Shown here piece by piece: positions 1,587 to 29,485 of a DNA stretch of 45,528 bases (the first letter of the stretch is position 1; each line of letters begins with the position of its first letter). Under the pieces are notes generated by a model. It ran no database searches. It saw only the letters and a program-made list of their open reading frames with translations, and was not told the DNA's origin. The position numbers were made by a program, and so were the translations under genes. Location: positions 1 to 45,528 of the forward strand of contig NZ_FNYY01000033.1 in assembly GCF_900109145.1 (NCBI RefSeq), read 5' to 3'. This DNA is from Marinovum algicola. Its GTDB lineage: Bacteria > Pseudomonadota > Alphaproteobacteria > Rhodobacterales > Rhodobacteraceae.

Positions 1587-1596
1587 CGCGGTGTCC

Positions 1597-2541: not shown

Positions 2542-2610
2542 GTTTGGTTTCCTGTTTGAAAAGGTCTGATCGGGCCGCAACCGGCGCGGCCCGGAAGATG
2601 CGGTCCGGTT

Positions 2611-3669: not shown

Positions 3670-3701
3670 ATCGGTCTCCTCCTTGGTGTTTCGGTTTGGT
3701 T

Positions 3702-5726: not shown

Positions 5727-5757
5727 TGAAGCTGATCCCCGATTGATCTGAGGTTGC

Positions 5758-5777
5758 GATGATCATCGATGATCATC
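5758..5777. repeat. Tandem pair of the perfect palindrome GATGATCATC
   Basis: The 10-bp palindrome GATGATCATC occurs twice back to back, about 32 nt upstream of the tctA-tctB start. It overlaps a plausible minus-strand promoter: TTGACC (plus strand 5785-5790), a 17-nt spacer, then GATGAT. It may be a second regulator site, for example for the LacI protein, or promoter-proximal symmetry without a bound factor. Confidence 0.45.
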
Positions 5778-5795
5778 TGCTATTGGTCAACAGTT

Positions 5796-5808
5796 TTGGA
5801 CCAACCAA
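5796..5808. promoter_or_regulatory. Operator copy TTGG-N5-CCAA in the tctAB/lacI intergenic region
   Basis: TTGGACCAACCAA matches the 13-bp YTGG-N5-CCAR dyad found before operons 2 to 5. It lies just upstream of the predicted -35 of the minus-strand tctAB promoter and 128 nt before the divergent regulator. A half-site TTGGTC lies at 5783-5788. It links operon 1 to the same regulon, though only one good copy is present here. Confidence 0.55.
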
Positions 5809-5926
5809 TTGTAAGAAAAATCCAGCCCTTGACCTTCCGCCCGCTGAACAGGACACTTTTGCAGGATGGAAATGGCATGTCTTTCCTTCGGGAGAGGCCT
5901 TGCAAATGCGAGGCAAGCAATTGAAA

Positions 5927-5940
5927 TGAAATCGTTTTGA
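5927..5940. promoter_or_regulatory. Possible LacI-type operator overlapping the regulator start
   Basis: TGAAATCGTTTTGA is an imperfect dyad around a central CG, the usual form of LacI/GalR-family operators. It overlaps the predicted TTG start of the LacI-type gene. If bound by that protein it would give autorepression. The symmetry is imperfect (five of seven half-site positions), so this is a weak call. Confidence 0.3.
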
Positions 5941-6932
5941 AAAAAGACACCCTGAAAATCGAAGACGTGGCCAAGGCCGCCCAAGTCTCGCGGGCGACGG
6001 CTTGGCGCGCGCTCAACAGGCCTGACCAAGTGTCGGCAAAGACGGTTGAACGGGTCAAGATGGCGGCGCGGACCATTGGCTATGTGCCCGATATTTCCGC
6101 CCGGACGCTGCGCACAAATCAAAGCGGGCTGATCGCCATGATCGTGCCTGCCGTCGATTCGGGCTTTGGCCACGTGATCGAGAAAGTCAGCGAAGTCGCG
6201 CTGAACAACGGGCGCGAAATCATCCTTGGCGTCACCGGCTATGACACAGACAAGGAAAGCGAACTGATCCGCCAGATGCTCGGACGTCGAGCGTCGGTCC
6301 TGATCCTGAGCGGCAATGACCAATCGGACGACACGCGCGCCCTGATTGCAGCCTCCGGCGCGGCGGTGATCCAGATATGGGAAGTCGACGGAGCACCCAT
6401 TCAGACGATGATCGGGTTCTCCAATTTCCGGCTGGGATATGGCGCGGCAGAGTGCCTGATCGGGTCCGGTCGGCGCAACCTTGCACTGTTGTACGCGCCA
6501 CGACGGCCCCGCTCGGCGCGTCGGATTGCCGGGTTCCGCAAGGCGATAACCGATGCCGGCCTGCACGATTGCGACACGCGTTATGTGGCATTGCATGTCT
6601 CTCCCGAAGAGATGGGTCAAGCCGTTCGGGGCCTGTTGGAGCACAGCCCCGAGATCGACGGCATTTACGCGAACGGCGATGTTCTTGCCTTGATCTGCGT
6701 CTCCGAGTTGGTGTCCCAGGGCAAGCGGGTTCCTGAAGATGTCAGCGTCCTCGGCTTCGGCAACCCCTATTTCGCGGATTACGTGTCACCACGGCTAAGC
6801 CGCGTTGTGGTGCCCGAACGACGCATTGGCGACATGACCGCGGATGCGTTGGCGGAACTGCTGCAATCCGGCATCAACACCGATCAGGTCACGGATCTGG
6901 GGTTCGAAATTATCCGTCGGGACTCGGCCTGA
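5937..6932 (+). CDS. LacI/GalR-family transcriptional regulator
   Basis: The 331-residue protein has the family layout: an N-terminal helix-turn-helix (about residues 6-27, IEDVAKAAQVSRATAWRALN), a hinge-helix region (about 50-60) and a periplasmic-binding-like effector domain to the end. The helix-turn-helix starts where expected if translation begins at the TTG at 5937; nearby ATG codons are out of frame, so the rare start is accepted with moderate confidence. It is divergent from operon 1, which it probably controls in response to a sugar or sugar acid. Its 3' end overlaps the convergent DsbA-like gene by 23 nt. Confidence 0.88.
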   Translation: MKKDTLKIEDVAKAAQVSRATAWRALNRPDQVSAKTVERVKMAARTIGYVPDISARTLRTNQSGLIAMIVPAVDSGFGHVIEKVSEVALNNGREIILGVTGYDTDKESELIRQMLGRRASVLILSGNDQSDDTRALIAASGAAVIQIWEVDGAPIQTMIGFSNFRLGYGAAECLIGSGRRNLALLYAPRRPRSARRIAGFRKAITDAGLHDCDTRYVALHVSPEEMGQAVRGLLEHSPEIDGIYANGDVLALICVSELVSQGKRVPEDVSVLGFGNPYFADYVSPRLSRVVVPERRIGDMTADALAELLQSGINTDQVTDLGFEIIRRDSA

Positions 6933-7563
6933 CCGAACGCAGCCCCATGAACCAGGCGCACATGTCGATCCGGTCCTGACCAAAGAACACCTCGCCGCGG
7001 TAGCCAAGGCTGGGCGTGCCCCAGTGGCCCGCCGCCCGCAGTGCGTCCGCATTGGTCTGCAACAGCGCCTCGCGATCGGGCGCAAGCGCGGCGGTCTGGC
7101 TTCGAAATTGCGCGGGATCAGACCCGCAGCTGGCCAGCGCAGTATCAAGCCGGTCGGGCTCGGCCCAGCTTGGCCCACCCGCAAACAACAAACGGGCCAG
7201 CGCCAAGTACACCACAACGCCCCTGCCCGTCAGGCAGGCCGCCGCAACCAGGTGGCTGAGGTGGCGGATATGGGGCTGATCGTCGGCCACCCTTCCGGTG
7301 TCCAGGTCCTGCAGCACCGGGTCCGGGTCGGGCCAGCCGAAGGGGATACGCTCCATCGCCGCCACCCGTTCCGCATCGCGCCGCAGGTAGGCCAGCTTGG
7401 CCGGGTCGCCCTTCTCGAAAAACCCCGGGTCGCGCAGGGCGATCGGATAGACGGGCCGCAGGTGCAGCTCCACGCCGGCACGCTCCGCCAACGCAACCAC
7501 CCGGTCCGCCGCGAGATAGGAGTAAGGCGACCGCATGGTGATGTAGAAGTCGAGCCGCGCCAT
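6910..7563 (-). CDS. DsbA-fold protein, 2-hydroxychromene-2-carboxylate isomerase / kappa-GST-like
   Basis: The 217-residue protein matches the HCCA isomerase/kappa glutathione transferase branch of the DsbA fold. The active-site stretch SPYSYLA (12-18) carries serine in place of a CxxC motif, an all-helical insert fills the middle, and HWGTPSLGY supplies the cis-proline loop near the C terminus. It is therefore not a disulfide oxidoreductase. Members isomerise glutathione-linked or aromatic substrates, but its role in a sulfatase/TTT operon is unexplained. It is the last gene of operon 2, starting 1 nt after the sulfatase stop, and ends convergently with the LacI-type gene. Confidence 0.82.
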   Translation of the reverse strand: MARLDFYITMRSPYSYLAADRVVALAERAGVELHLRPVYPIALRDPGFFEKGDPAKLAYLRRDAERVAAMERIPFGWPDPDPVLQDLDTGRVADDQPHIRHLSHLVAAACLTGRGVVVYLALARLLFAGGPSWAEPDRLDTALASCGSDPAQFRSQTAALAPDREALLQTNADALRAAGHWGTPSLGYRGEVFFGQDRIDMCAWFMGLRSVRPSPDG

Positions 7564-7564
7564 C

Positions 7565-9046
7565 TCAGGCCGGGGCCACCCGGGGCGGCCCGGCGTCGAG
7601 CGTGCCCATCATCCGGTCCAGATGCCGGGCGATCAGCTCGGACTTAAGACCGGCCTTCCCCGGATCGTGCCACATGCAGTGGAATTCGCCAGGGTCTTCG
7701 TGCAGGTCGAACAACTCGCCCAGCCCGGGATGCGAATGATAGACAACCAGCTTGTAACGCCCGTCACAGGTCATCGAGGCGCGGGTGTCCTGCGTCACTT
7801 CGCTGGATCCCAGCGAGTCGTTGAAATCCGTCACCACCGTGTCCTTGTGCGCCGCCGCGCCGGCAAAGACCGTGCCGGTTAGGCTTTGGCCCTGGATGGC
7901 GTCGGAAATGTCGATCCCGGCGAGGTCCAGCAGCGTGGGCGCGATGTCGATGCTTTCCACCATCGCCTGCGACCGCTGCCCCCGGGGCACACCCGGCCCG
8001 GCGATGATCAGCGGCACATGCACCAGCCCTTCGAAAAAGCGGCAGCCCTTGTAGAGCAACCCGTGATCGCCCAGCATCTCGCCATGATCGCTGGTGAAGA
8101 TGATCACCGTGTTGTCGATCTGGCCGCTGGATTCCAGGTGGTCGAGGATGCGTCCGAATTGATGATCAAGGTTCTCGATCATCGCGAAATAGGCGGCTTT
8201 GACCGCCATGCCGTCGAACTCTTCGGGCGGTTTGGCACCGCGTTCGTCGCCCTCGGGGATGACATGCGCGGCGCGGGCCTCGGCACTCAGCACCGGGTTC
8301 ACCGCGCTGCGTTTCTGGCTGCGGACATTGGCAAACCGCACCTGGTGGGCAATGTCGCTGTCGCGGAACAGGGGCGGCGTCAGCCCGCTGCCGTCGCCAA
8401 ACCGCGCCATCGCCTCGGGCGGCGGGTTGAAGGGCGGGTGCGGGTCAAAGGGATTGAGGCTGAGCATCCAGGGGCCGTCGCGCGCCTCATCGACAAACTC
8501 GATGGCGCGGTCGGCGATCCAGGCCGCCTGGTGCAGCTCTGCCGGGACACCGATCGAAAGATACGGCGGCTTGCCGGGAAACATCTCCTCCGGGCGCAGC
8601 CCCTTGTCGCGCAGCCAGGTCCAATAGCCGTTGCTGCCCGGCACCTTTTCCCAGCCCGGGTTCTGGCACCAGTCAAACAGTCGATAACCATCGTCGGGCC
8701 GCGTCTCAAGCCGGGCGGCGGTGGACAGGTGCAGCTTGCCGATCAGCCCGCAATCATAGCCCGCATCGGCCAGTGTCTTTGTCACCAGCCGTTCGGTCTC
8801 GGGGAAATAGGCATTGCCGTTGCGATAGACCCTATGGGCCGCCGGATAGCGCCCGGTGAGAAAGCTGGCGCGGCTGGGGGTGCAGATCTGGTTCTGGACA
8901 TAGCAATTGTCGAAACTCGTGCCGCGCGCCACCAGCCGGTCGATATTGGGCGTCCTGATCTCGGCATTGCCAAGCGCCGAGATCGTGTCATGCCGCATCT
9001 GGTCGGCGCAGAACCACAGGATGTTGGGGCGTGTATCCGGTGTCAT
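7565..9046 (-). CDS. Type I (formylglycine) sulfatase
   Basis: The 493-residue protein belongs to the alkaline-phosphatase-like sulfatase superfamily. The modification motif CTPSR is at residues 55-59, where C55 would become formylglycine. D15 near the N terminus (FCADQMR) and the TSDHGEMLGDHG block around residue 320 supply metal ligands. There is no signal peptide, so it should act in the cytoplasm on an imported sulfate ester. It overlaps the upstream tctA gene by 4 nt (ATGA) and lies in operon 2, implying that the second TTT system imports its substrate or a related compound. No maturase gene is visible in the window. Confidence 0.9.
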   Translation of the reverse strand: MTPDTRPNILWFCADQMRHDTISALGNAEIRTPNIDRLVARGTSFDNCYVQNQICTPSRASFLTGRYPAAHRVYRNGNAYFPETERLVTKTLADAGYDCGLIGKLHLSTAARLETRPDDGYRLFDWCQNPGWEKVPGSNGYWTWLRDKGLRPEEMFPGKPPYLSIGVPAELHQAAWIADRAIEFVDEARDGPWMLSLNPFDPHPPFNPPPEAMARFGDGSGLTPPLFRDSDIAHQVRFANVRSQKRSAVNPVLSAEARAAHVIPEGDERGAKPPEEFDGMAVKAAYFAMIENLDHQFGRILDHLESSGQIDNTVIIFTSDHGEMLGDHGLLYKGCRFFEGLVHVPLIIAGPGVPRGQRSQAMVESIDIAPTLLDLAGIDISDAIQGQSLTGTVFAGAAAHKDTVVTDFNDSLGSSEVTQDTRASMTCDGRYKLVVYHSHPGLGELFDLHEDPGEFHCMWHDPGKAGLKSELIARHLDRMMGTLDAGPPRVAPA

Positions 9047-10542
9047 CCTTGGGCCACCTCGCCCCCGGCATGTCGTTTTCGCAGCCAGGTGCTGATGGCG
9101 GGCCAGCAGAGCGAAGCGATGGAGATGGCCAGGAAACTCGCGGCGAAGGGCCGGGTGAAGAGCGGCTCAAGGCTGCCGCCGGTGGACATGAGGCCGGAGC
9201 GCAGGTGTTCCTCGGCAATCGGAGCCAGGACAAAACCGATCACGAAGGGGCCGAGCGGCATCTTTGCCCGCTCCATCACGAAGCCCAGCAGCCCCAGCGC
9301 CAGCATCACCCAGACGTCAAAGAAGCTGTTGCCGACGGCAAAGATACCGATGACGCAGAACACCAGGATCGAGGTCAGCAGGAAGGCGCGCGGCACATAG
9401 AGCACCTTGGCGATATGGCGCACCGCCAGCATCATGATGGCGAACATGATCAGGTTGCCCACTAGATAAGCGGCGATCACGCCATAGGCCACCTCGGGCG
9501 CGTTGATGAACAAAAGCGGGCCGGGTTCGAGGTTGTGAATGATCAGCGCGCCGATCAGGATAGCGTCGACCACAGAGCCGGGGATCCCCAGCGTGATCAA
9601 CGGGATAAGCGCCCCACCCACCGCCGCGTTGTTGGCGGTTTCGGCGGCGACAACCCCCGGCTCATGGCCGGTGCCAAACTTCTGCGGCTCTTTCGACGCA
9701 CTGCGGGCGGCGGAATAGCTGAGCATCGAGGCGATGTTCGACCCGATCCCCGGCAGGATGCCGATCCAGGTGCCGATCAGGCTGGAGCGAAGGAAATTTC
9801 CGCTGTGCCGGCGCCAGTCGCCCGGCGACAGCAGCAGCTTGCCCTCGGCCAGGTCGGCCTTGGGCGGGCGGACGTCAATGTTGATGATGTCCTTGATGAT
9901 CTGGCTGATGGCAAAGGCGCCGATCAGCACCGGCAGGAGGCTCAGCCCGCCCTCGAAGGCGTCGACGCCAAAGGTCAGCCGCGGCGTGCCCGAGGACGGA
10001 TCGATCCCCGGCATATGGATCAGCATGCCCAGGCAGGCGGCGATCAGCCCCTTGAGCAGCGATCCCTGGCTCAGGCTGGACAGCATGACCAGCGCCATCA
10101 GCACCATGGTGAAATATTCCCAGGGGCCGAAGGTGATGGCCAGCCGCGAAAACGGCGGCGCCAGCAGCGCCAGCACGAGGAAGGAGATCATGCCGCCCAC
10201 AAAGGAGGCGGTGATGCCCAGACCCAGCGCGCGGGCCGCCCTGCCCTGTTGCGTCATGGGATAGCCGTCGAAGGTGGTCATGATCGACGAAGGCGTGCCC
10301 GGCATCCGCAACAGCGTGGCCGAGATCTGGCTGCCCGACACCCCGCCGACATACATGCCGACCAGCAGCATGATCGCGTTCACGCTGTCCATGAAGAAGG
10401 TCAGCGGCAGGGTCAGGGTGATCAGCATCGTGGTGGTCAGCCCGGGGATCGAGCCCACGACAATTCCAAGGGCCACGCCAAGGAAGACCAGCGCAAAGGG
10501 CAGCGGCGTCATCAGGTAGAAGAGCGCATCAAAGAATGGCAT
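9043..10542 (-). CDS. TctA-family large permease subunit of the second TTT transporter
   Basis: The 499-residue membrane protein has many hydrophobic segments and the TctA signature loops (IVVGSIPGLTTTM near the N terminus, GILPGIGSNIASML mid-protein). It forms the inner-membrane channel with TctB (10558-11046) and works with the TctC at 11116-12102. The TctB stop lies 15 nt upstream and its own stop overlaps the sulfatase start. Unlike the operon 1 permease, it is not fused to TctB. Confidence 0.92.
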   Translation of the reverse strand: MPFFDALFYLMTPLPFALVFLGVALGIVVGSIPGLTTTMLITLTLPLTFFMDSVNAIMLLVGMYVGGVSGSQISATLLRMPGTPSSIMTTFDGYPMTQQGRAARALGLGITASFVGGMISFLVLALLAPPFSRLAITFGPWEYFTMVLMALVMLSSLSQGSLLKGLIAACLGMLIHMPGIDPSSGTPRLTFGVDAFEGGLSLLPVLIGAFAISQIIKDIINIDVRPPKADLAEGKLLLSPGDWRRHSGNFLRSSLIGTWIGILPGIGSNIASMLSYSAARSASKEPQKFGTGHEPGVVAAETANNAAVGGALIPLITLGIPGSVVDAILIGALIIHNLEPGPLLFINAPEVAYGVIAAYLVGNLIMFAIMMLAVRHIAKVLYVPRAFLLTSILVFCVIGIFAVGNSFFDVWVMLALGLLGFVMERAKMPLGPFVIGFVLAPIAEEHLRSGLMSTGGSLEPLFTRPFAASFLAISIASLCWPAISTWLRKRHAGGEVAQG

Positions 10543-10557
10543 GTCGGTCCCTCCTGC

Positions 10558-11046
10558 TCAGGGCAGGTTGATGTAGAAAAAGCGCGTGAAGGCAAAGTCG
10601 CAGGCCATGACCAGAACGACCGCGTAACCGGCGATCCAGGGCAGCTTGCGCATGTCCCGGTGGGTCAGCAGGAAGCCGCAGAGGATGACAAAGCCGATCC
10701 CCGCGACCTTGAAGCTAGCCAGCCCGAAGTCCATCACAGCGACAAAGGCAAAGACGGCGATCAGCACCGCAACAGCCAGCTTGGGGTGTTGCCGGGGTGC
10801 TTCGGGGTCACGAGGCGCCGCAGTCGCGGGCTGGGCCTGCCGCAGGCCGGGCAGCAGGCGGATCACCCAGATGGCCGAGAGAAAGGCCATCAGCCCGGCC
10901 AGCATGCGCGGCACGGCGGCCGATCCCAGCGGTTCGAACCGCGGTTCGGGCAGCCCGGCGGCGCCGACGAAGATCACCCCGGAAAAGCCGATCAGCGCCA
11001 AGGCCAGCGCCAGTTCGATCTTCGGGTTTGCAGCAGATTTTTCCAT
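10558..11046 (-). CDS. TctB-family small membrane subunit of the second TTT transporter
   Basis: The 162-residue protein has four predicted membrane helices and begins MEKSAANPKIELALALALIGF, typical of the poorly conserved TctB subunit. I placed the start at 11044-11046 because GGGGGAG lies just upstream and the longer in-frame form adds only a polar arginine-rich tail. Its position between tctC and tctA matches the common order. Confidence 0.85.
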   Translation of the reverse strand: MEKSAANPKIELALALALIGFSGVIFVGAAGLPEPRFEPLGSAAVPRMLAGLMAFLSAIWVIRLLPGLRQAQPATAAPRDPEAPRQHPKLAVAVLIAVFAFVAVMDFGLASFKVAGIGFVILCGFLLTHRDMRKLPWIAGYAVVLVMACDFAFTRFFYINLP

Positions 11047-11115
11047 GGTCTCCCCCCTTGGAATTGGCCTCGCCCGCGCGGTGGGCACGCGGGCGAGGGA
11101 TGGAATGGCGCGGGC

Positions 11116-12102
11116 TCAGTCGGCGAGCCCGGCCTCTTCCGCCACGACCTTCAGCCGCGTCAGGACGTCGAGCGAGCTGGCCAGCGCGGCCGCGCCATCG
11201 GTCCAGTAGGGCTCAAGCGTGTTCTCGGTGAACCAGGCCTGCATCTCGTCGCTTTCCACGGCGGCCTGCAGCGCGGTGGTGATTATCTCTTCCGCTTCCG
11301 CATCGAGGTTGTCGGGCGCCAGCCAATACAGCGGGTTGGCCCAAACCACGTCGTAACCCAGTTCCGCGGCGGTCGGCACATCGCCGATGGCGGGCAACCG
11401 GTTCGCGCCGAAATAGGTCAGCGCGCGGATGCCGTTGGGCTTGTAGCTGAGGTATTCCGACCCGGAAAACAACGCGATATCGGCATTGCCGCCCAACAGC
11501 CGCGCCAGGCGGTCGGCGCCACCCGGTGCGCCGATCAGGCGGGTCTCGAACCCGGCCTTCCTGGCCAGCATGAGACCCACGATATGCGGTACAGTGCCGA
11601 TGCCCACCGCCTCGGTCAGGCTTTGCGGCTCGGCGCGCAGGGCGTCGATCAGCTCTTCCAGCGTCTGATAGGGAGCATCGTCGCGCACCGTCCAGACCGG
11701 GCTGCCGCCGCCGGTGAAGCCCAGCGAGGTGAAGTCCTCGGGGTGGATCTCGTTCACGCCGAGGGCGTTGGAGACCAGAACGCTGTGCGACCACATCATG
11801 ATGGTGTGGCCATCGGGCTCTGCCCCCAGCACTTCGCGCGCCGCATTGGCCGAGGCCGCGCCGGGCACATTCACGATGACCAGCGGCTGCGGCAGAAGGT
11901 TGTTCTCATTGATATAGGTCGAGATCTTGCGCGCCACGGTATCGGTGCGCCCGCCCGGACGATAACCGACGTAAACCTGGATCGGCTTTGACGGAAACTC
12001 TGCCGCTGCCGGTGTCGCGCTGGCGACAAGCGCGGCCGTGCCAAGGGTCGCGGCCACCGAAGCCGCCGCGATCCCGCGCACCATGGTCTGGATGAATGTC
12101 AT
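11116..12102 (-). CDS. TctC-family substrate-binding protein of the second TTT transporter
   Basis: The 328-residue periplasmic binding protein starts with a signal peptide (hydrophobic core AAASVAATLGTAALVASA, probable cleavage after AAA near residue 34). The TctC start FPSKPIQVYVGYRPGGRTDTVAR follows. The start at 12100-12102 has a GGGAGGA ribosome-binding site; an upstream in-frame ATG is rejected because it precedes the signal peptide. It is the first gene of operon 2, and its upstream region (12103-12333) carries three copies of the YTGG-N5-CCAR operator plus a minus-strand TATATT -10 hexamer. Confidence 0.9.
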   Translation of the reverse strand: MTFIQTMVRGIAAASVAATLGTAALVASATPAAAEFPSKPIQVYVGYRPGGRTDTVARKISTYINENNLLPQPLVIVNVPGAASANAAREVLGAEPDGHTIMMWSHSVLVSNALGVNEIHPEDFTSLGFTGGGSPVWTVRDDAPYQTLEELIDALRAEPQSLTEAVGIGTVPHIVGLMLARKAGFETRLIGAPGGADRLARLLGGNADIALFSGSEYLSYKPNGIRALTYFGANRLPAIGDVPTAAELGYDVVWANPLYWLAPDNLDAEAEEIITTALQAAVESDEMQAWFTENTLEPYWTDGAAALASSLDVLTRLKVVAEEAGLAD

Positions 12103-12149
12103 GAAGTCCTCCCGTTTTTGGTCATGGATGTCAGCTCTCCGTCTGACAA

Positions 12150-12162
12150 CTGGACCGACCAA
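12150..12162. promoter_or_regulatory. Operator copy CTGG-N5-CCAA, operon 2 promoter
   Basis: CTGGACCGACCAA fits the shared YTGG-N5-CCAR dyad. It overlaps the minus-strand -10 candidate TATATT (plus strand 12161-12166), the arrangement expected for repression of the tctC-tctB-tctA-sulfatase operon. A degraded copy with one arm altered (CTGTCTAGTCCAA) lies at 12181-12193. Confidence 0.6.
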
Positions 12163-12200
12163 TATAGTGAAATTTGCGATCTGTCTAGTCCAAAGCTGTT

Positions 12201-12213
12201 CTGGACCAACCAG
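12201..12213. promoter_or_regulatory. Operator copy CTGG-N5-CCAG, operon 2 upstream region
   Basis: CTGGACCAACCAG has perfectly complementary arms. It lies 51 bp from the 12150 copy (start to start), close to five helical turns, so cooperative binding from one DNA face is possible. Confidence 0.6.
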
Positions 12214-12295
12214 AGAAGATGGCCCTCAGCTCACACTACGTCCTGTTTTGTCAGTGGAGTTTGGCGCACTCCCTAACGCGCGGGTTGGCTGAAGC

Positions 12296-12308
12296 CTGGT
12301 CCAGCCAA
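12296..12308. promoter_or_regulatory. Operator copy CTGG-N5-CCAA between operons 2 and 3
   Basis: CTGGTCCAGCCAA lies 26 nt beyond the stop of the ABC permease gene and about 190 nt upstream of tctC. It is embedded in a wider inverted repeat (GGTTGGCT at 12283-12290 with AGCCAACC at 12303-12310). That repeat could also act as a weak terminator for operon 3. Confidence 0.5.
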
Positions 12309-12333
12309 CCCGTATCAGAATCGTTCACCGGGT

Positions 12334-13098
12334 CTATTTGCCCTGCCAATGCAACACGCGCCTTTGGACTGCGGAAATTGCCAACTCCCAGACGAGTCCG
12401 ATCAGTCCGATTATGATGATCCCGACATAGGTGACCGGCAAATTGAAGTATTGCGCCGAATCCAGGATCATGAAGCCCAAACCCGCCTGCGCACCGATCA
12501 ATTCGGAAGCGACCACCAAGGTCCAACTGATGGATGACGCCGCACGGATGGCGGTCATGATTGCGGGCAGGGCCGCAGGCAGAACCACCTTGAAGAACAA
12601 TTGCGTCCGCGTCAGCCCGATGTTTTCGCCCGCCCGGATGATCAGGTCGGGGATGTTGCGCACGCCTTCGGCACTGTTCAGCACGACGTACCAAAGGCAG
12701 GCCATAAAGATCAGCCCGATCTTTGGCCCCTCTCCGATGCCGAAATAGAACACGAACAAAGTGATGAAGGCGATCGGAGGGATTGGTCGAAAAAAGCCGA
12801 TGATCGGCGCGAAGACCGCTTCGAGCACCTTGTGTCTACCAATCAAGAGACCGAGAGGGACGCCGATCAGGATAGCCAGAGAAAACCCTGCAAGCGCCCG
12901 GAAAATGGAAACGCCGACGTGACTCCACAAGGGACTACCGGAATAGCCACGTGCAAGAAGATCCGCGAAAGTTTGCGCCAATGTCACAGGGCTTGGCAAG
13001 CTGCGTTCGTCCACCAGCCCGCTCAGCGTCAGGACCGACCAAAGAGCCAGCAACGCAGCGCCAGATGCCATCGAATACCAGCGGTAGGAAGTCGTCAT
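12334..13098 (-). CDS. ABC transporter permease, SsuC/TauC type
   Basis: The 254-residue membrane protein has about six helices and the binding-protein-dependent transport EAA loop (about 155-185, AGENIGLTRTQLFFKVVLPAALPAIMTAI, here split by reading only the AGENIGLTR and VVLPAALPA landmarks). Homologues move taurine, alkanesulfonates, nitrate or pyrimidine precursors. It overlaps the ATPase gene by 4 nt (ATGA) and ends operon 3. The transport of sulfur- or nitrogen-containing small molecules known for this family fits the sulfatase-rich setting but does not prove a sulfonate substrate. Confidence 0.9.
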   Translation of the reverse strand: MTTSYRWYSMASGAALLALWSVLTLSGLVDERSLPSPVTLAQTFADLLARGYSGSPLWSHVGVSIFRALAGFSLAILIGVPLGLLIGRHKVLEAVFAPIIGFFRPIPPIAFITLFVFYFGIGEGPKIGLIFMACLWYVVLNSAEGVRNIPDLIIRAGENIGLTRTQLFFKVVLPAALPAIMTAIRAASSISWTLVVASELIGAQAGLGFMILDSAQYFNLPVTYVGIIIIGLIGLVWELAISAVQRRVLHWQGK

Positions 13099-13880
13099 TG
13101 TCTTTCCTCCGGTTTCGCGCGCAGAAGCTCGACAATTTCAGCGCGCGCCTCGGCGAACCTGGGATCTGCGGTGATGGCATAGGTTCTGGGACGCTCAAAG
13201 GGGATGTCGTAAATCCGGGCAATCGTGCCCGGGTGCTGCGACATGACAATCACCCGATCCGCGAGGAAAAGCGCCTCTTCCACGTCGTGGGTGATGAACA
13301 GGATCGTGGGCTTGTATTCCTGCCAGACCGAAATCAGCAGCTCATGCATGTTGATCCGCATCTGGGCGTCCAGGGCCCCGAAAGGCTCATCCATCAAGAT
13401 AAGTTTCGGCCCGGCCACCAGAACGCGGGCAATCTGGGCACGTTGCTTCATGCCACCTGAAAGCTGATAGGGATAATGGTCGCGAAACTTTTCCAGGCCT
13501 ACGCTTTTCAGCACCCTGTCCGCCTCGGGCCCATAATCCCCGGGCTTGACGCCGCGCGACTTCGGGCCAAGCACCACGTTGTCATACACGCTCAGCCAGG
13601 GAAACAGGACGGGCTGCTGGAACACCACGCCCCGGTCGGGCGAAGGTCTGTTTATCTCTTCGCCCATGATTTCCAACAGGCCCGATGTCGGCTCAGTGAA
13701 CCCCGCCACCATGTCCAGGAACGTGGATTTACCGCATCCACTGGGCCCGACAATACAGATGATCTCTTCCGCCTCGATCACGAGGTTGAAATCGATCACC
13801 GCCTTGATGCGCTCTCCCGAAGCGCGCCCCGGACTGGAGAAGCACTTCTCCAGCCCCCTGGATACAAGCACCTCCGTCAT
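13095..13880 (-). CDS. ABC transporter ATP-binding protein, TauB/SsuB type
   Basis: The 261-residue ATPase shows Walker A GPSGCGKST, signature LSGGMKQRAQIARVL, Walker B LILMDEPFGALD and an H-loop ITHDVEEA. The start at 13878-13880 is preferred because it overlaps the binding-protein stop by 4 nt (ATGA); the longer in-frame form adds 59 low-complexity residues that are a shadow of that gene. It drives import by the neighbouring permease. Confidence 0.93.
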   Translation of the reverse strand: MTEVLVSRGLEKCFSSPGRASGERIKAVIDFNLVIEAEEIICIVGPSGCGKSTFLDMVAGFTEPTSGLLEIMGEEINRPSPDRGVVFQQPVLFPWLSVYDNVVLGPKSRGVKPGDYGPEADRVLKSVGLEKFRDHYPYQLSGGMKQRAQIARVLVAGPKLILMDEPFGALDAQMRINMHELLISVWQEYKPTILFITHDVEEALFLADRVIVMSQHPGTIARIYDIPFERPRTYAITADPRFAEARAEIVELLRAKPEERQ

Positions 13881-14872
13881 TGTGCGGCCATTTGCGCCGG
13901 ACCGGGGTTCAGAAAGTCGACGCCAGCCCCAGTTGCATTGATCAACCCTGCGGCCAGGGCCCTGTCCTCGACCCAGTCGATGATCGCGCCGCTTCCTTCT
14001 GGGCCAGTCAAAGAAAAGACATTGGATTCCGCAACCTGGTCGGTCACCGTCGCCCAATTGGTTCTGGCGATGACGCTTTGTGCCAGTTCCGGCTTGATTC
14101 CCGTCATCTCTTCGATCTTGGCAAGTGTCGGGCCCGGGTCTTGCTCATAGGCTTCGATCCCGGCTGTCAGGGCCCGGGATACCCGCGCCACGGCATCGCG
14201 GCCTTCCTCGCTCTCCACCCACTCTCCGCCTGCAGCAAGCCCGAAGACATCATGCAGACCGATCTCCGACGCGTTGCTCACCTGGACGGCGCCGTTTGCC
14301 TCGGCAATGGAAAGAAGCGGCTCCCACAGCCATGCCGCATCCACATTCCCGTTCTGAATGGCGGATACGGCCTGCGGCGGCGGCAGCGGCACAAAGTCGA
14401 CCCGATCGAAATCCAGCTCGGCATCCATCGCCTGAGAGACATGGAACAGGTGAAGGATGGACCCCGGAGGCGCGGTAATCGATTGATCCGCAAGGTCGGC
14501 GTAGGACTCAAGTGAGCTACCTTTGGAAAGGACGAGACCGGAAATCGCGCTGGCGTCACCGATGTTATAGACCCACTTCGCCTCCAGCCCGCGGGTGGAT
14601 GCCATGTAAAAGGCGGCTAGCGCCCCTTGTGCCAGATCGATGCTGCCCGCCTGCAAGGATTGGAATTGCGCGGGGCCGGAGGTGAATTTGATGAGCGTCA
14701 CATCGACGCCAAAGTCTTCGAACAGCCCGTGCGCCTCGGCGGCAAACAGCGGCATCGTCGGAACCGGCAGATATCCGTAGTTCACTTCGATCATGGCCTC
14801 TTGTCCCGCGCAGGCCCCCGCCAAGACGGTCATGGCGCCTATCGTGGCGGACTTGAAAGCGTTGAATTTCAT
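13877..14872 (-). CDS. ABC transporter substrate-binding protein, NMT1/TauA-like
   Basis: The 331-residue protein starts with an export signal (KSATIGAMTVLAGACAG; the cysteine might act as a weak lipobox). The NMT1/SsuA-like fold follows, with the typical phrases GLFEDFGVDVTLIKF, LQAGSIDLAQGALAAF and NGNVDAAWLWEP. It is the first gene of operon 3 and has a GGGAGGA site. The closest functional families bind taurine, aliphatic sulfonates or thiamine precursors; the ligand here is unknown. The region upstream (14873-15091) is shared with the divergent GntR gene and carries three copies of the regulon operator. Confidence 0.88.
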   Translation of the reverse strand: MKFNAFKSATIGAMTVLAGACAGQEAMIEVNYGYLPVPTMPLFAAEAHGLFEDFGVDVTLIKFTSGPAQFQSLQAGSIDLAQGALAAFYMASTRGLEAKWVYNIGDASAISGLVLSKGSSLESYADLADQSITAPPGSILHLFHVSQAMDAELDFDRVDFVPLPPPQAVSAIQNGNVDAAWLWEPLLSIAEANGAVQVSNASEIGLHDVFGLAAGGEWVESEEGRDAVARVSRALTAGIEAYEQDPGPTLAKIEEMTGIKPELAQSVIARTNWATVTDQVAESNVFSLTGPEGSGAIIDWVEDRALAAGLINATGAGVDFLNPGPAQMAAQ

Positions 14873-14946
14873 TTAGCATTCCTCCCTTGAAAACTTGGGT
14901 CCGCGATCGGACGGGTGGGTCCATTCAGGATCGGGATTCCCATCAT

Positions 14947-14959
14947 TTGGTCCAGCCAA
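14947..14959. promoter_or_regulatory. Operator copy TTGG-N5-CCAA between operon 3 and the GntR gene
   Basis: TTGGTCCAGCCAA is a consensus copy of the regulon dyad. It lies 75 nt upstream of the minus-strand binding-protein start, where it could block operon 3 transcription. Confidence 0.65.
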
Positions 14960-14979
14960 TATGCGAAATTGCACCCCAT

Positions 14980-14992
14980 CTGGCTAGTCCAA
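14980..14992. promoter_or_regulatory. Operator copy CTGG-N5-CCAA between operon 3 and the GntR gene
   Basis: CTGGCTAGTCCAA has good arms but a different spacer. The spacer CTAGT also occurs in the degraded copy at 12181-12193, suggesting shared ancestry of the two promoter regions. A degenerate TTGG-N5-TTCA follows at 15002-15014. Confidence 0.5.
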
Positions 14993-15042
14993 AATCCAAA
15001 ATTGGTTGGGTTCAGTCCACAATTTTCGCTCACTTCTGGCAT

Positions 15043-15055
15043 TTGGCCCAGCCAG
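15043..15055. promoter_or_regulatory. Operator copy TTGG-N5-CCAG just before the GntR gene
   Basis: TTGGCCCAGCCAG lies 36 nt upstream of the GntR ATG, an ideal place for autoregulation. Confidence 0.6.
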
Positions 15056-15091
15056 TGCCTATGCTCGCCCAAACCTCTGCGGAGCGCATGG

Positions 15092-15769
15092 ATGAGTCAG
15101 AAAGTCTATCAACGCATCGCCGGCGAGCTGGAACAGATGATCCGGTCCGGCGAATTGAAACCAATGAGCCGGCTTCCGGCGGAACGTGACCTTGCCGCCC
15201 AGTTCGAGGTCAGCCGAACCACGATCCGCGAGGCGCTGATGGTGCTGGAGGCGGGCGAAATCATCCGGATCAAGGACCGCTCCGGGGCTTATGTCCTTCC
15301 GGTGACCCGAAAATCCGCGGGTATCCTGCACTCCATCGAGGCGACACCGGGCCCGCACGAAGTGCTCCAGATGCGGCGGTTGATCGAGGGCGAGGCCTGT
15401 TTTCTTGTGGCGCTGAACGGATCGCGGCGGGCGATCGATGCAATTGTCGATGCCAATATGGCCAATGCCGAAGTGCCGCCAGACGACACGCCAGAATTCC
15501 ACGATGCCACGAAACAGTTCCACCTGAGCATTGCCCAGGGCTCGGAAAACAGCCTGTTCGTCGAGCTGCTGGAATACCTGTGGGAGCAAAAGAGCGGGCC
15601 GTTGTGGGAGAACTGGTACGGCAGCACGCGGTCACGGCAGAACCGGATTGCCGTGCTGGCCAACAACCAGGAAGTGACCGACGCCATCGTCGCACGCCGA
15701 CCTCAGGCGGCGCGCACAGCGATGCAGCGCCATATCGATTGGATGATTTCGCGCTTTCTCAGCTATTGA
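15092..15769 (+). CDS. GntR-family regulator, FadR/FCD subfamily
   Basis: The 225-residue protein has an N-terminal winged helix-turn-helix (about 5-70, with RLPAERDLAAQFEVSRTTIREALMVLEAGEII, landmarks PAERDLA and SRTTIREAL). An all-helical FCD effector domain follows, with candidate metal-binding residues in D-x-x-FH (FHDATKQFHLSIA) and a late histidine (MQRHIDWMI). Such regulators respond to carboxylic acids or sugar acids. I chose the ATG at 15092 because GGAG lies 8 nt upstream and the fold begins there; 59 extra upstream codons are intergenic. Its central position and the operators on both sides make it the best candidate controller of operons 2 to 5. Confidence 0.92.
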   Translation: MSQKVYQRIAGELEQMIRSGELKPMSRLPAERDLAAQFEVSRTTIREALMVLEAGEIIRIKDRSGAYVLPVTRKSAGILHSIEATPGPHEVLQMRRLIEGEACFLVALNGSRRAIDAIVDANMANAEVPPDDTPEFHDATKQFHLSIAQGSENSLFVELLEYLWEQKSGPLWENWYGSTRSRQNRIAVLANNQEVTDAIVARRPQAARTAMQRHIDWMISRFLSY

Positions 15770-16700
15770 CCGGCGGGTCCGCTGCCAGCCGGGCATGGTG
15801 GATCTCGGCCGCGCCCGCGGCAATGGCGGCGGCGCCGTCGATCACCTGTGCGGTCACGCCAAGCGCCCCCGCCGCCCGCGCGTAAAAGCCCGCCAGTTCC
15901 GGCTCTCCGACGATCAGCAGCGCCCGCGTGCCGGTGGCCTGTTGCATCGCCTGGATCTCGGATCCGATCAGCACGCCCGAGAGATAGCCGCGCCCGTCGA
16001 CCGGATCGACCCGGCCCGACAAGAGCGCGCGCGGCCGGGTGGAAAACGCCAGCAGCACCGCGCCCAGGCCCGATTGCGCCACCGTCACGCCTTCGTCGAA
16101 ACCGGCCAGCCCGGTGCCGCCCAATTCGCTGGTCACATGACCCTTCAGCACGCTGGCATGGCAGAGCAGGTCAAAAAGCTCACCTGTCATCGCGGTCGAA
16201 ATCCGCTGGATCGCGCCGCCGCGACAACTCACCCACTTGCTGTGGGTGCCGGGCAGGCAGACCAGCGCCTCTTCCTGACCGGCCAAGGCTAGCCCGCCGA
16301 ACACCTGCACCTCTTCGCCGCGTATCATCTCAGGGAAGCCGCCAAGCGAGGGCGCGCTGACCCCCGGCACGATATGCGCCGCCGTGCCGGGCAGTGCCAC
16401 CAACCTGGCCTGCACCGTGGCGCGGGTCTGGGGCGCGGGGTTCATCGCCACCTCCTGCCAGCCCAGATTGCTGCCGACCATGCCCACCAGAAGCGCCTGC
16501 CGACAGCCGAACTTGGCCTGCAATCGGTCCATGGCGCGCTCATAGACCCGAGGAAAGGCTTCGCGCTCGGTCTGCTTCACGCCCCGCCCCGAGATCCGTC
16601 CGAGGATGGCGCCGCGCGCGTCGACCGCGTAGGCGCGCAGGTTCGAGGTGCCCCAGTCAAACACCGCCAGCGGCCAGGGCGTGGCGTCAGAGCCCGTCAT
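15759..16700 (-). CDS. dgoK: 2-dehydro-3-deoxygalactonokinase (DgoK)-like sugar-acid kinase
   Basis: The 313-residue protein matches the DgoK family of the ASKHA kinase fold. It has the phosphate-binding start LAVFDWGTSNLRAYAVD (about 11-27), the CLPGTHSKWV block and GYLSGVLIGSEIQ near the C terminus. DgoK phosphorylates 2-keto-3-deoxygalactonate in D-galactonate catabolism. The start at 16698-16700 gives a family-typical length and overlaps the upstream dehydrogenase by 14 nt. Its 3' end overlaps the convergent GntR gene by 11 nt. A separate KDPGal aldolase (DgoA) is not seen; the DapA-like enzyme of operon 1 could fill that step, but this is a guess. Confidence 0.85.
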   Translation of the reverse strand: MTGSDATPWPLAVFDWGTSNLRAYAVDARGAILGRISGRGVKQTEREAFPRVYERAMDRLQAKFGCRQALLVGMVGSNLGWQEVAMNPAPQTRATVQARLVALPGTAAHIVPGVSAPSLGGFPEMIRGEEVQVFGGLALAGQEEALVCLPGTHSKWVSCRGGAIQRISTAMTGELFDLLCHASVLKGHVTSELGGTGLAGFDEGVTVAQSGLGAVLLAFSTRPRALLSGRVDPVDGRGYLSGVLIGSEIQAMQQATGTRALLIVGEPELAGFYARAAGALGVTAQVIDGAAAIAAGAAEIHHARLAADPPVNS

Positions 16701-17622
16701 CCAGCCCCTCCAGCGCGGCCCGCAGCCGCAGCAGGTTGCGGTCACGCCGGTCGAGGTAGTCGGCGGGCGCGCCGTCATAATCGTAAAAGCCGCGCCCAGC
16801 CAGCAGGCCGTTGGCCCCCTCGACCAGCAGGCTGTCGAGCCGTTTGGTGCCGGTCGGCTGAACCGGCGGCGTGTAGAGCCCGGCCGCATGGATGTCGCGC
16901 ACCACCTGAAGCCCGGTATAGTCGATCTTGCGGAACTGCCCCATCAGGCAGAGCCGCTGCGCCAGCCCGAAGCGGATGGCATCGTCGATATCCCCGACCT
17001 CGGCCACGCCCGCATCCAGCAAGCGAAAGACCTCCGCCTCAATGGCCATCTGCACGTTGTTGGCGATATAGCCGGGCACGAACTTGCGCAGCAGCACCGG
17101 CTTTTTGCCCATCGCGCGCAGGAATTCCACCATGCGCGCGGCAAGCCGCGGATCGGCATCAGGCGCGGGCACCACGTCGACCAGATCGATCAGGTAGGGC
17201 GGCGTGTACCAATGCACGATCAGCGTGCGGGTCGACAGGGCCTGGGGCACCAGCGGGAAGATATCCAGAAAGGAAGTATTGCTGGCGATGACAGCATCGG
17301 CGCGCACCAGCCCCGCAAGCTGGTCGAACAGCGCGCGCTTGGCCTCGGCATCCTCGACAATCGCCTCGACCACCAGGTCGGCCTCGGTCACGGCGCCCGC
17401 CAGGTCCACGGCATAGCCGATCCGTGCCAGCGCCTCCGGCGCCTCGGCCACGCCGGTATTGCCGGACTGCGCCAGATCCTCCAGCCGCGTCCGGGCCCAG
17501 TCCAGCCGCTCCTGCGACAGATCGCAGAGCGTCACCTCACAGCCCGCCATCGCATGGACCAGCGCAATCGCATGGCCCATCAGCCCGGCGCCGATCACGG
17601 TGACCTGTTCATACCCCGCCAT
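16687..17622 (-). CDS. 3-hydroxyacyl-CoA dehydrogenase-family NAD(P)-dependent oxidoreductase
   Basis: The 311-residue protein has the Rossmann motif GAGLMG (11-16), the SNTS loop (114-117) and the family C-terminal helical domain (FVPGYIANNVQMAIEAEVF). The region holding the catalytic histidine reads HWYTPPYLIDLVDVV (from H137), unlike the HFFNPP of true fatty-acid enzymes and closer to the branch that includes L-gulonate 3-dehydrogenase. It may therefore oxidise a hydroxy or sugar acid and not an acyl-CoA. I prefer ATG at 17620-17622, with GGAG 9 nt upstream, over GTG at 17628. It lies in operon 4 directly behind the ThDP enzyme. Confidence 0.83.
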   Translation of the reverse strand: MAGYEQVTVIGAGLMGHAIALVHAMAGCEVTLCDLSQERLDWARTRLEDLAQSGNTGVAEAPEALARIGYAVDLAGAVTEADLVVEAIVEDAEAKRALFDQLAGLVRADAVIASNTSFLDIFPLVPQALSTRTLIVHWYTPPYLIDLVDVVPAPDADPRLAARMVEFLRAMGKKPVLLRKFVPGYIANNVQMAIEAEVFRLLDAGVAEVGDIDDAIRFGLAQRLCLMGQFRKIDYTGLQVVRDIHAAGLYTPPVQPTGTKRLDSLLVEGANGLLAGRGFYDYDGAPADYLDRRDRNLLRLRAALEGLDDGL

Positions 17623-17624
17623 GA

Positions 17625-19292
17625 TCACAGGCTCCAGGCCGGTTCGGGGTTGCTGTCGGGGTCGGTGACCACATCAACAACCACCGGTTCGCGCAGGGCA
17701 ATCGCCTTTTCCAGAGTCGGGCGGATGTCGGCGGCGCGTTCGACCCGGAAGCTGCGGATGCCGAAGACTTGGGCCAGGTCGGCAAAGTTGGTCTTCCGGA
17801 ATTCAACCAGGTCGCCCAGGTTGCCGTCGCGACGTTCATAGAGCTTCTTGACCGAGCGCAGCCCCTGCCCCAGCGCCGAATTGTTGTTGACCACGATCAC
17901 CGCCGGGATGTTCCAGCGGCGCATCGTCTCGAGCTCGCCGATGTGGTAATAGAACGCACCATCGCCAGTGAAGCAGACGACAGGGCGGTTTTTGGCCCCC
18001 TGTTGCGCGCCAAGTGCTGCCGGAAAGGCCCAGCCCAGCGATCCGGCCGCCCGCAGGTAGGTCTGGCCCGGCTTGTCAAAGGCGGTGTATTGCGCCGTCC
18101 AGGTGGCCGAGAACCCGGTGTCCGCCACGACGATCCCGTTCTCCGGCAGGGCCTTGCCCAGCTCATGCGCCAGCAGCGGCGCCGGGATCAGGTCTTCCTG
18201 CCCGTCGAACTGGCCCAGCGAGCTGGCCAGCCATTCACGCGCCGCCGAGGTGCAGCGCGCCAGCCAGCCATTGCCGGACGTCTCGGCGCAGGTCTCGGCC
18301 AGCGCAAGCAGCGTCCGGTTCAGATCCCCCGCCAGCCCCAGCACGTCGGGATAGCCGCGCCCCAGCTCTGCCGGATCGGTGTCGATCTGGATGATCTTCG
18401 TGCCGGGGGTCGGGATGGTCCAGTTGGTGCTGATCTGGTCGCCCATGTGACAGCCGACATAGATCACCAGGTCGGACTGGGCCAACAGGGCGTTGGCATA
18501 GGGCGCCGAATAGGTGCCGACAACGCCGAAATGATTGGGATGCGACGTGGGGATCACCGAGCGGCCGCCCACGGATGTGGCTACCGGAAGGCCCAGCCTC
18601 TCGGCCAGCGCCATGACGCCGGGACCGGCCTTGTCGTACAGGCTGCTGACCCCGCAGACCAGCATGGGGCGGGCGGCCCCGGCCAGCAGCGCAGCCGCCT
18701 GGTCCAGCATGGCGCGGTCGGGCAGTGCCGGCGCGGATTGCCCCGAGGCCGGAAAGCCCAAAAGCGCCGGATCGCCGGTGAATGCCACCTCTTCCACCAT
18801 GTCGCCCTTCAGCCCGTCGAGATCCAGGTGCACCGGCCGCGGCGTGCCGGTCCGCCCGGCGCGCAGCGCATGGCCCAGCATCCGCGGCAGCTCGTTCACG
18901 TCGCGCACTTCGCCGGTGAACTTGGTGACGGGCCCGTACAGGGGTGCATGCGGCACCTCTTGATAGGCGTTGCGGTGTTGGTGGCTGTCGGGTTTGCGCC
19001 CGGTCATGGCCAGCATCCGCACCCGGTCGAGGTAGCCGTCCTGAAGGCCCGCGGCCAGGTTCGCCGCGCCCACCGCCTGGGCCATGCAGACCCCCAGCTT
19101 GCCGGTGGCGCGGGCATAACCGTCGGCCATGTAGGCCGCGGCCTTCTCGCTGTGGGCAAGGATGCGGGCGATGCCGCGATCCTCAAGCTCCAGCAGGGTA
19201 TGACGCAGCACGGCGTCCACGAAGAAGACACTGTCCAGCGCCTCCTGTTTCTCGATCACGTCGGCAAGGATCCGGGCACCGGTTTGGGTCAT
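17625..19292 (-). CDS. Thiamine diphosphate-dependent enzyme, acetolactate synthase-like
   Basis: The 555-residue protein shows the three-domain ThDP fold. E49 in AHSEKAAAYMADGYARATG is the expected activating glutamate; the ThDP/Mg motif starts at G443-D-G445 and ends in VVNNNSALG. It resembles the acetolactate synthase/benzoylformate decarboxylase superfamily but the N-terminal FGxPG loop is replaced by SVFFVDAVLRHTLLEL, so it is probably not a biosynthetic IlvB. It might cleave or ligate a 2-keto acid or aldehyde. I did not identify it as sulfoacetaldehyde acetyltransferase. It is the first gene of operon 4, with the operator-rich region 19293-19566 upstream. Confidence 0.85.
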   Translation of the reverse strand: MTQTGARILADVIEKQEALDSVFFVDAVLRHTLLELEDRGIARILAHSEKAAAYMADGYARATGKLGVCMAQAVGAANLAAGLQDGYLDRVRMLAMTGRKPDSHQHRNAYQEVPHAPLYGPVTKFTGEVRDVNELPRMLGHALRAGRTGTPRPVHLDLDGLKGDMVEEVAFTGDPALLGFPASGQSAPALPDRAMLDQAAALLAGAARPMLVCGVSSLYDKAGPGVMALAERLGLPVATSVGGRSVIPTSHPNHFGVVGTYSAPYANALLAQSDLVIYVGCHMGDQISTNWTIPTPGTKIIQIDTDPAELGRGYPDVLGLAGDLNRTLLALAETCAETSGNGWLARCTSAAREWLASSLGQFDGQEDLIPAPLLAHELGKALPENGIVVADTGFSATWTAQYTAFDKPGQTYLRAAGSLGWAFPAALGAQQGAKNRPVVCFTGDGAFYYHIGELETMRRWNIPAVIVVNNNSALGQGLRSVKKLYERRDGNLGDLVEFRKTNFADLAQVFGIRSFRVERAADIRPTLEKAIALREPVVVDVVTDPDSNPEPAWSL

Positions 19293-19312
19293 GAGGAAGG
19301 TTCCTGTCTGAA

Positions 19313-19325
19313 TTGGTTGAGCCAG
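19313..19325. promoter_or_regulatory. Operator copy TTGG-N5-CCAG before the ThDP gene
   Basis: TTGGTTGAGCCAG lies 20 nt upstream of the minus-strand start of the ThDP enzyme gene, inside or just below its likely promoter. Confidence 0.55.
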
Positions 19326-19345
19326 ACTTAACTGGATTCTTCATT

Positions 19346-19358
19346 TTGGTCCACCCAA
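19346..19358. promoter_or_regulatory. Operator copy TTGG-N5-CCAA, operon 4 promoter
   Basis: TTGGTCCACCCAA is a consensus copy. On the minus strand it follows a candidate -35 TTGATA (plus strand 19361-19366), so it would sit between -35 and -10 of operon 4. Confidence 0.62.
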
Positions 19359-19445
19359 ATTATCAAGGCATCCCAGATCTCATTGCACTATGCCCCTGGT
19401 TGGTGGGTCAATTGACTGTAATAAATGCGTATTTTCATCACTTCC

Positions 19446-19458
19446 CTGGTTGGTCCAG
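19446..19458. promoter_or_regulatory. Operator copy CTGG-N5-CCAG in the operon 4/5 divergent region
   Basis: CTGGTTGGTCCAG has perfectly complementary arms. It lies midway between the two divergent promoters and overlaps a second half-consensus (TTGGTCCAG). A further degenerate copy lies at 19400-19411. Confidence 0.58.
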
Positions 19459-19510
19459 CTTGCCGCTAATTCCGAGTTTCTGCCCCACCCAATTCACATC
19501 TCTTGACATT

Positions 19511-19523
19511 CTGGTCCATCCAA
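19511..19523. promoter_or_regulatory. Operator copy CTGG-N5-CCAA, operon 5 promoter
   Basis: CTGGTCCATCCAA begins 3 nt after a perfect plus-strand -35 hexamer TTGACA (19503-19508) and ends just before a weak -10 (TAACCT, 19525-19530, 16-nt spacer). A bound repressor would cover the core promoter of the second sulfatase operon. Confidence 0.62.
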
Positions 19524-19566
19524 TTAACCTGGGACTGAAATCCTCCTCCCCAAGTCAGGCCCCCTC

Positions 19567-21021: not shown

Positions 21022-21038
21022 AACAAGAGAAAGATACA

Positions 21039-26147: not shown

Positions 26148-26196
26148 AATTCGACTTTCATTCAAGATCGCTCGTACAGACGCTTGCCCACATCCC

Positions 26197-29480: not shown

Positions 29481-29485
29481 TTAAC

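Follow-up and report, generated by a model that had tools for sequence, protein, structure and literature searches.

A 13-bp dyad shared by six transcription units as the probable operator of a FadR-subfamily regulator in Marinovum algicola

A 13-bp dyad, YTGG-N5-CCAR, recurs in four intergenic regions of Marinovum algicola that serve six neighbouring transcription units encoding importers, sulfatases and sugar-acid enzymes. The stretch analysed, hereafter the window, comprises 45,528 nt (assembly GCF_900109145.1, contig NZ_FNYY01000033.1, positions 1–45,528 of the forward strand), and its transcription units were assigned from gene directions. That one operator is common to all six units is well supported by the sequence comparisons below, and we consider it likely that the dyads are the operators of a FadR-subfamily GntR/FCD repressor encoded at 15092–15769, which would hold off RNA polymerase until a sugar-acid ligand is bound. 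The sites themselves, their placement, conservation and pair spacing, and their co-occurrence with a GntR clade were obtained by computation.

Distribution and conservation of the dyad

The window contains 15 exact matches to YTGG-N5-CCAR, compared with a mean of 3.60 and a maximum of 9 in 100 dinucleotide shuffles. Eleven of them fall within the 934 bp of the four intergenic regions (5727–5936, 12103–12333, 14873–15091 and 19293–19566) as against four (3749, 5321, 28910 and 33111) in the remaining 44,594 bp, and thus equal density was not seen. These 11 copies are the sites given in the first-pass annotation of this DNA, and a pattern scan of the window recovered each as an exact match inside the four regions; its number of operons, at least five, becomes six transcription units when gntR is counted, and its commonest type, TTGGTCCAGCCAA, turned out to be present once among the 11 sites. 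Shuffling the four regions by themselves (2000 dinucleotide shuffles) gave a mean of 0.15 matches and never more than three. When spacers of 0–20 nt were compared, only N5 was clearly enriched (11 intergenic matches); N1 came second with six matches, which apparently arise from TGGWCCA inside these N5 sites.

Conservation was assessed in the two named genomes in which the cluster was found, Primorskyibacter sedentarius (L031) and Phaeobacter sp. J2-8 (L032, a 20.7-kb stretch), and in both the motif is conserved in the orthologous promoters. The P. sedentarius cluster, 90.8% identical to the window at the DNA level over 16.9 kb, has 10 of the 11 sites exactly, site 12201 having one mismatch; the six core bases of each site are identical at 65 of 66 positions, compared with 557 of 791 other intergenic bases (Fisher P=7 × 10−9, treating bases as independent), and the spacer bases at 48 of 55. 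The centre of site 14980 has changed from CTGGCTAGTCCAA to TTGGATAGACCAA, with both half-sites still fitting the motif. The Phaeobacter cluster is rearranged such that the tct-sulfatase operon adjoins gntR and the ABC importer is gone from between them; the ABC importer genes, the thiamine diphosphate (ThDP) enzyme and the dehydrogenase have no orthologue in the 20.7-kb stretch, the rest of that genome not having been searched. Its two equivalent intergenic regions contain six exact sites, spaced at 33 and 64 bp (33 and 65 bp in the window), and in the operon 5/6 region the core bases are identical to those of the window at 21 of 24 positions versus 132 of 222 for the others (P=0.0046). The promoters of operons 1 and 3 were compared with P. 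sedentarius only.

Pattern- and stretch-based searches of the M. algicola genome (5.40 Mb) gave 305 places for YTGG-N5-CCAR and 537 for a reversed control pattern. A tight form, YTGGWCCANCCAR, occurs at 10 places, seven of them in the four regions, an enrichment that is partly circular in that the pattern was derived from the sites themselves; in the P. sedentarius genome it occurs at nine places, seven of them in the cluster. Further regulon members elsewhere were considered and rejected: the tight matches outside the clusters (three in the home genome, two in P. sedentarius and four in Phaeobacter, six in the two relatives taken together) all lie inside mechanically called open reading frames (ORFs) of at least 100 aa, and the stretches around the six outlying matches of the relatives (L041–L046) contain no homologue of the window at an E-value of 10−8 except a weak LysR match (L043).

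A GntR-family protein as candidate reader of the sites

The gntR gene (15092–15769, + strand) is predicted to encode a FadR-subfamily protein with an N-terminal winged helix-turn-helix (HTH) and a C-terminal FCD domain (Pfam GntR, 6.9 × 10−21; FCD, 2.4 × 10−20). Its best NCBIfam models all score far below their cutoffs (UxuR, 95.6 against 442 bits; PdhR, 93.9 against 330; ExuR, 92.8 against 396), and PdhR is among its nearest sequences in PDB. As the annotation had proposed, the dyad stands in the promoter of gntR itself: the predicted operator TTGGCCCAGCCAG (15043–15055) lies 36 bp upstream of the start codon, pointing to possible autoregulation. FadR-subfamily operators are described in PMC4494728 as palindromes with TKGT/ACMA boxes and usually three nucleotides between GT and AC, GT-N3-AC being named there for DgoR, ExuR, FadR, GlcC, LldR and PdhR. 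Since GT-N3-AC has the geometry of TGG-N5-CCA, the motif of the window has the spacing of this subfamily.

Furthermore, a separate tctCBA-gntR-sulfatase operon was found, via the GntR protein and not via the motif, at three other loci, namely contig C22 of the home genome (G000; 384000–395000; L037), a relative (L040) and plasmid p599725 of Paracoccus seriniphilus (L062). Their GntR proteins are 35–38% identical to that of the window, and the HTH stretch VSRTT[IV]REAL is common to all five aligned GntR proteins. Upstream of tctC each of the three loci carries a pair of sites, neither having more than one mismatch, 31–32 bp apart, and the tctC-promoter pair is present in all six GntR-linked loci (the window, L031, L032, L037, L040 and L062). 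The controls were eight tct loci with a TctA 50–57% identical in whose fetched stretch no GntR match exceeded 25% identity, and seven of them had a sulfatase match; among their nine upstream stretches (two from one locus of the home genome), none held an operator pair (0/9) or an exact site (0/9). The intergenic contrast, the orthologous promoters and this co-occurrence with a distant GntR in tctCBA-gntR-sulfatase operons together make the FadR/FCD-type GntR a well-supported candidate for the protein that reads the shared operator.

GntR homologues were also surveyed more widely (49 loci, 4 of which were skipped as their upstream sequence was already counted or too short; L001, L002, L049, L050, L057, L061, L063 and L076, comprising the window's own gntR, its orthologues and repeats of the C22 and G028 loci, had been left out beforehand). 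The motif stood within 300 bp upstream of 7 of the 45, compared with 0–3 for any one of 12 other spacers, and downstream of 2 of the 45; this is a family tendency only. The neighbourhood of the Catenovulum GntR is not a tct-sulfatase operon. The home genome also contains a sister cluster on contig C55 (2826–13022; L079), with matches to 2-keto-3-deoxygalactonokinase (DGOK; 43%), the DsbA-like protein (38%), TctA (57%) and sulfatase (52%) and with a different GntR, 25% identical; no exact copy or pair of the operator was found upstream of its two tctC-like genes. Cross-regulation between the GntR proteins of the window and of L037 would be possible.

Promoter architecture, proposed mechanism and alternatives

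Operon 1 (396–5726, − strand) and the divergent lacI-family gene (5937–6932) have the single predicted operator TTGGACCAACCAA (5796–5808) upstream of them, all 13 bases of which are the same in P. sedentarius. Operon 2 (6910–12102, − strand) is preceded by the predicted proximal operator CTGGACCGACCAA (12150–12162) and, 31 bp away, the predicted distal operator CTGTCTAGTCCAA (12181–12193; one mismatch), a pair whose like is found in L031, L032, L037, L040 and L062; an additional exact site, CTGGACCAACCAG, lies at 12201–12213. At operon 3 (12334–14872, − strand) the predicted proximal and distal operators are TTGGTCCAGCCAA (14947–14959) and the site mentioned above at 14980–14992, 33 bp apart, and at operon 5 (15759–19292, − strand) they are TTGGTTGAGCCAG (19313–19325) and TTGGTCCACCCAA (19346–19358), again 33 bp apart, the pair and its spacing being the same in P. 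sedentarius and Phaeobacter. Upstream of operon 6 (19567–21944, + strand) stand the predicted operators CTGGTTGGTCCAG (19446–19458) and CTGGTCCATCCAA (19511–19523) and between them the one-mismatch site CTGCCCCACCCAA (19480–19492), with 34 and 31 bp to the sites on either side; in P. sedentarius this middle site has one mismatch too (33 and 31 bp). The last of the 11 exact sites, CTGGTCCAGCCAA (12296–12308), is doubtful as an operator owing to its overlap with a hairpin. Thus, the first-pass list is right about the exact matches, includes one doubtful operator and lacks the one-mismatch sites 12181 and 19480. Of nine adjacent site distances, five are 31–34 bp as compared with 0.50 expected by random placement (P=2 × 10−5), a figure whose weight is lessened by the class having been picked after the data were seen and by its including those two one-mismatch sites.

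The -35-like and -10-like promoter boxes were read by eye. In operons 2, 3 and 5, the distal site extends with its right half over a -35-like box, and the left edge of the proximal site adjoins a -10-like box. The -35-like hexamers at distal sites are TAGACA (at 12181, − strand), TGGTCA, TGGACA, TGTACA, TAGCCA and TATCCA, with TGGACC in operon 5, and the -10-like hexamers at proximal sites include TATATT, GATATT and CATATT; the -35 overlap may explain why the tctC distal sites depart from CCA towards (A/T)CA. At operon 6, a TTGACA that is the same in the window, P. sedentarius and Phaeobacter is followed by a TAnnCT -10-like box, and the operator at 19511 lies in the spacer between the two. 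Between their operators, the promoters of operons 2 and 3 are alike in sequence (P=0.0014, single-base shuffling), which hints at promoter duplication.

GntR binding, repression, the promoter boxes, the ligand and the substrate are inferred, as follows. GntR dimers would bind YTGG-N5-CCAR, often as pairs 31–33 bp apart, a distance of about three helical turns that would place paired sites on one face of the DNA. Since the sites overlap, abut or lie between the promoter boxes, bound GntR would exclude RNA polymerase from six promoters, its own included. A sugar-acid intermediate, probably of the galactonate/2-keto-3-deoxy-aldonate group, would then bind the FCD domain and release GntR, derepressing two tripartite tricarboxylate transporter (TTT) importers, the SsuA-like ABC importer, two cytoplasmic-looking sulfatases, the catabolic enzymes and gntR. 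A more speculative extension, to which we give clearly less than even weight, is that operator pair and promoter form one fused portable element, with the right half of the distal operator as the -35 box, the left edge of the proximal operator as the -10 box and 31–33 bp between them, which would have been copied before operons newly joining the growing plasmid cluster; the likeness of the operon 2 and 3 promoters between their operators speaks for it. If true, the sulfated-sugar-acid pathway would have been assembled by the spreading of a ready-made repressible promoter.

A number of observations weigh against the dyads as operators of the GntR repressor. The outer Y/R bases of the sites are identical in P. 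sedentarius at 17 of 22 positions, no better than the background of 557 of 791, and allowing one mismatch makes the motif frequent (82 matches in the rest of the window). The tight form occurs in the Phaeobacter genome at three places in the cluster and four elsewhere, and the matches to gntR (10001–10676) and to the second sulfatase (11925–13375) in that cluster each come in two pieces in different frames, two TGA codons being counted inside gntR of the same genome (G001); this copy may be decaying, misassembled or affected by sequencing error, and its sites may reflect only recent inheritance. The distal tctC site is one mismatch off in all six loci, as is the proximal site in L037 and L062, and the six positive tctC promoters amount to about three independent lineages; among the control stretches, four of nine contain isolated one-mismatch sites, one or two apiece (five in all). 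GT and AC are found together in none of the 11 sites, with one of them in nine and neither in two, and 9 of 22 half-sites have the T of GT/AC; the operator would be slightly relaxed relative to the FadR consensus, and the annotation's statement that the dyad fits FadR/FCD-type GntR proteins stands for the spacing and fails for the full consensus. Its further claim that several sites cover -35/-10 boxes is borne out by eye for operons 2, 3, 5 and 6 and finds no support in an automatic promoter scan, which gave four hits versus 3.4 in shuffles, none overlapping an operator.

Chance or base composition could be suspected from the 305 matches across the genome, but the shuffles, the intergenic contrast and the conservation all oppose it, the reversed control pattern is commoner still, and the density and conservation contrasts already refute it, leaving it with practically no probability. 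The LacI-family protein might read the motif in place of GntR: its gene adjoins site 5796, its sequence is similar to those of sugar-acid regulators (NF052440, for a LacI-type HTH regulator named GntR, is the best NCBIfam model, at 229 bits against a cutoff of 400) and it is 92% conserved in P. sedentarius. LacI operators, however, are usually centred on CG, which counts against this protein as the reader. Furthermore, the sites stand in the gntR promoter, and their 13-bp spacing is of the FadR type (PMC4494728). Finally, the LacI-family protein has no match (tblastn, E up to 10−4) in the site-bearing stretches of L032, L037, L040 and L062, which makes GntR the better reader and LacI an improbable one. 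GntR could also bind as an activator or dual regulator at some promoters, inasmuch as site 5796 is single and upstream of a promoter-like TTGACC-17-GATGAT match of the automatic scan, a possible activator position, and extra sites lie farther upstream at 12201 and 19446; the sites of operons 2, 3, 5 and 6, which overlap or lie between the by-eye boxes, have the usual placement for a repressor, so that we regard activation as rather unlikely.

Whether only the promoter-proximal sites are operators, with 12296 and perhaps 12201 falling outside, we judge to be evenly poised. Site 12296, just after operon 3, is part of a hairpin with a 13-bp stem (−27.8 kcal/mol, z=−3.8), a stability that none of 200 shuffles equalled. 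P. sedentarius keeps a hairpin there (−28.8 kcal/mol, z=−2.4, equalled by 3 of 200 shuffles), and the two stems differ, as read by eye, by a U-A to C-G change. The site may represent an RNA element and not an operator; at the place of site 12201, with its mismatch in P. sedentarius, Phaeobacter has no match at all. On the other side, site 12296 is exact in P. sedentarius too, including the CTGG half, which lies only partly in the stem. The GC-rich hairpin itself spans 12282–12311 and, since no T-run follows it, is not a classic intrinsic terminator; Rfam and tRNA scans of the window found nothing.

Encoded functions and comparison with known systems

The gene content gives an indication of what the predicted regulon serves. 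Operon 1 (tctA1-tctC1-DHDPS-MR/MLE) encodes a TctA-family protein (3702–5726), a TctC-like protein (2611–3729; named from sequence and place, as it has no Pfam hit), a DHDPS-family protein (1597–2580) and a galactonate-dehydratase-like MR/MLE protein (396–1586). Operon 2 comprises tctC (11116–12102), tctB, tctA, a sulfatase with CTPSR and a DsbA-like protein; operon 3, an NMT1/SsuA-like binding protein, an ABC ATPase and a permease; operon 5, the ThDP enzyme, a 3HCDH-type dehydrogenase and DGOK; and operon 6, a sulfatase with CVPSR (19567–21021) and an SMP-30-type lactonase (about 21039–21944). Both sulfatases (Pfam Sulfatase, 1 × 10−49 and 8.6 × 10−50) thus have CxPSR, the modification motif of formylglycine (S1-type) sulfatases, and their N-termini lack a hydrophobic leader (by eye), which suggests that a sulfated compound is imported first and then desulfated in the cytoplasm. 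By sequence, the nearest relatives of solved structure are as follows: for the DHDPS protein, L-2-keto-3-deoxyarabonate dehydratase; for the MR/MLE protein, first an MR/MLE-like protein and next a putative D-galactonate dehydratase; for the second sulfatase, choline-sulfatase; for the ThDP enzyme, BbmA followed by acetolactate synthases; and for the 3HCDH protein, 3-hydroxyacyl-CoA-type dehydrogenases. The galactonate-dehydratase-like protein, the deoxyarabonate-dehydratase relative, DGOK, the lactonase and the sulfatases point to a sulfated sugar or sugar acid as substrate, and the six neighbouring gene sets probably serve the uptake and breakdown of a sulfated sugar acid.

The contig encodes a RepC-type replication protein and a ParA-like protein, and is therefore probably a plasmid of the repABC kind. 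Beside the catabolic cluster, at 27693–35356, lie maintenance and mobile-element genes (integrase, resolvase, an ATPase with DUF4143, ParA-like and RepC). Between the two, 22245–27093 encodes a LysR regulator, a zinc alcohol dehydrogenase, an IolC-DUF2090 kinase/aldolase-like fusion and a metallo-hydrolase; a pattern scan found no exact copy of YTGG-N5-CCAR there, so these genes are apparently outside the regulon.

In this way a single regulator would govern both TTT importers, the ABC importer, both sulfatases and the sugar-acid enzymes. The annotation's view of one system is well supported in that the operator is common to six units and conserved across genomes; a single pathway for all the genes would go further than this evidence. 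The substrate becomes testable, as the GntR ligand is likely to be an intermediate that an operator-based reporter would find. Furthermore, the regulator-importer-sulfatase core and the operator pair are common to several lineages, and the cluster shows how genes may join a regulon on a plasmid. A search of the open-licence literature by title and start of abstract found no paper on this regulon or on a GntR together with TTT importers and sulfatases, and within that literature the description of the regulon as undescribed is upheld; we regard the regulon as new and its regulator as a member of the known FadR subfamily.

Among known regulators, UxuR, ExuR and PdhR provide the best NCBIfam models for the GntR protein, yet none is an equivalog match, and UxuR sites have two nucleotides between GT and AC (PMC4494728) where those of the window have three. 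The 25 of 29 matching NCBIfam models that were listed include UxuR, PdhR, ExuR, NanR, LldR and GlcC and none named DgoR, no check having been made that the library contains one. DgoR, the D-galactonate repressor of Escherichia coli, is like the window GntR in belonging to the FadR subfamily and in its operator pair over the promoter, an arrangement predicted for the window and described for DgoR in PMC12288454 as two closely spaced inverted repeats overlapping it. The DgoR repeat TTGTAGTACAA, as given in PMC12288454, differs from the operator core TTGG-N5-CCAA of the window. The likeness extends to the genes, in that the predicted regulon includes DGOK and a galactonate-dehydratase-like enzyme; unlike the DgoR system, it would span six transcription units with sulfatases and TTT and ABC importers. 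The operon of P. seriniphilus p599725, L037 and L040 is a small core without the six-unit regulon of the window, most of its sites being one mismatch off, but it has the same importer-regulator-sulfatase set and a similar operator pair upstream of tctC.

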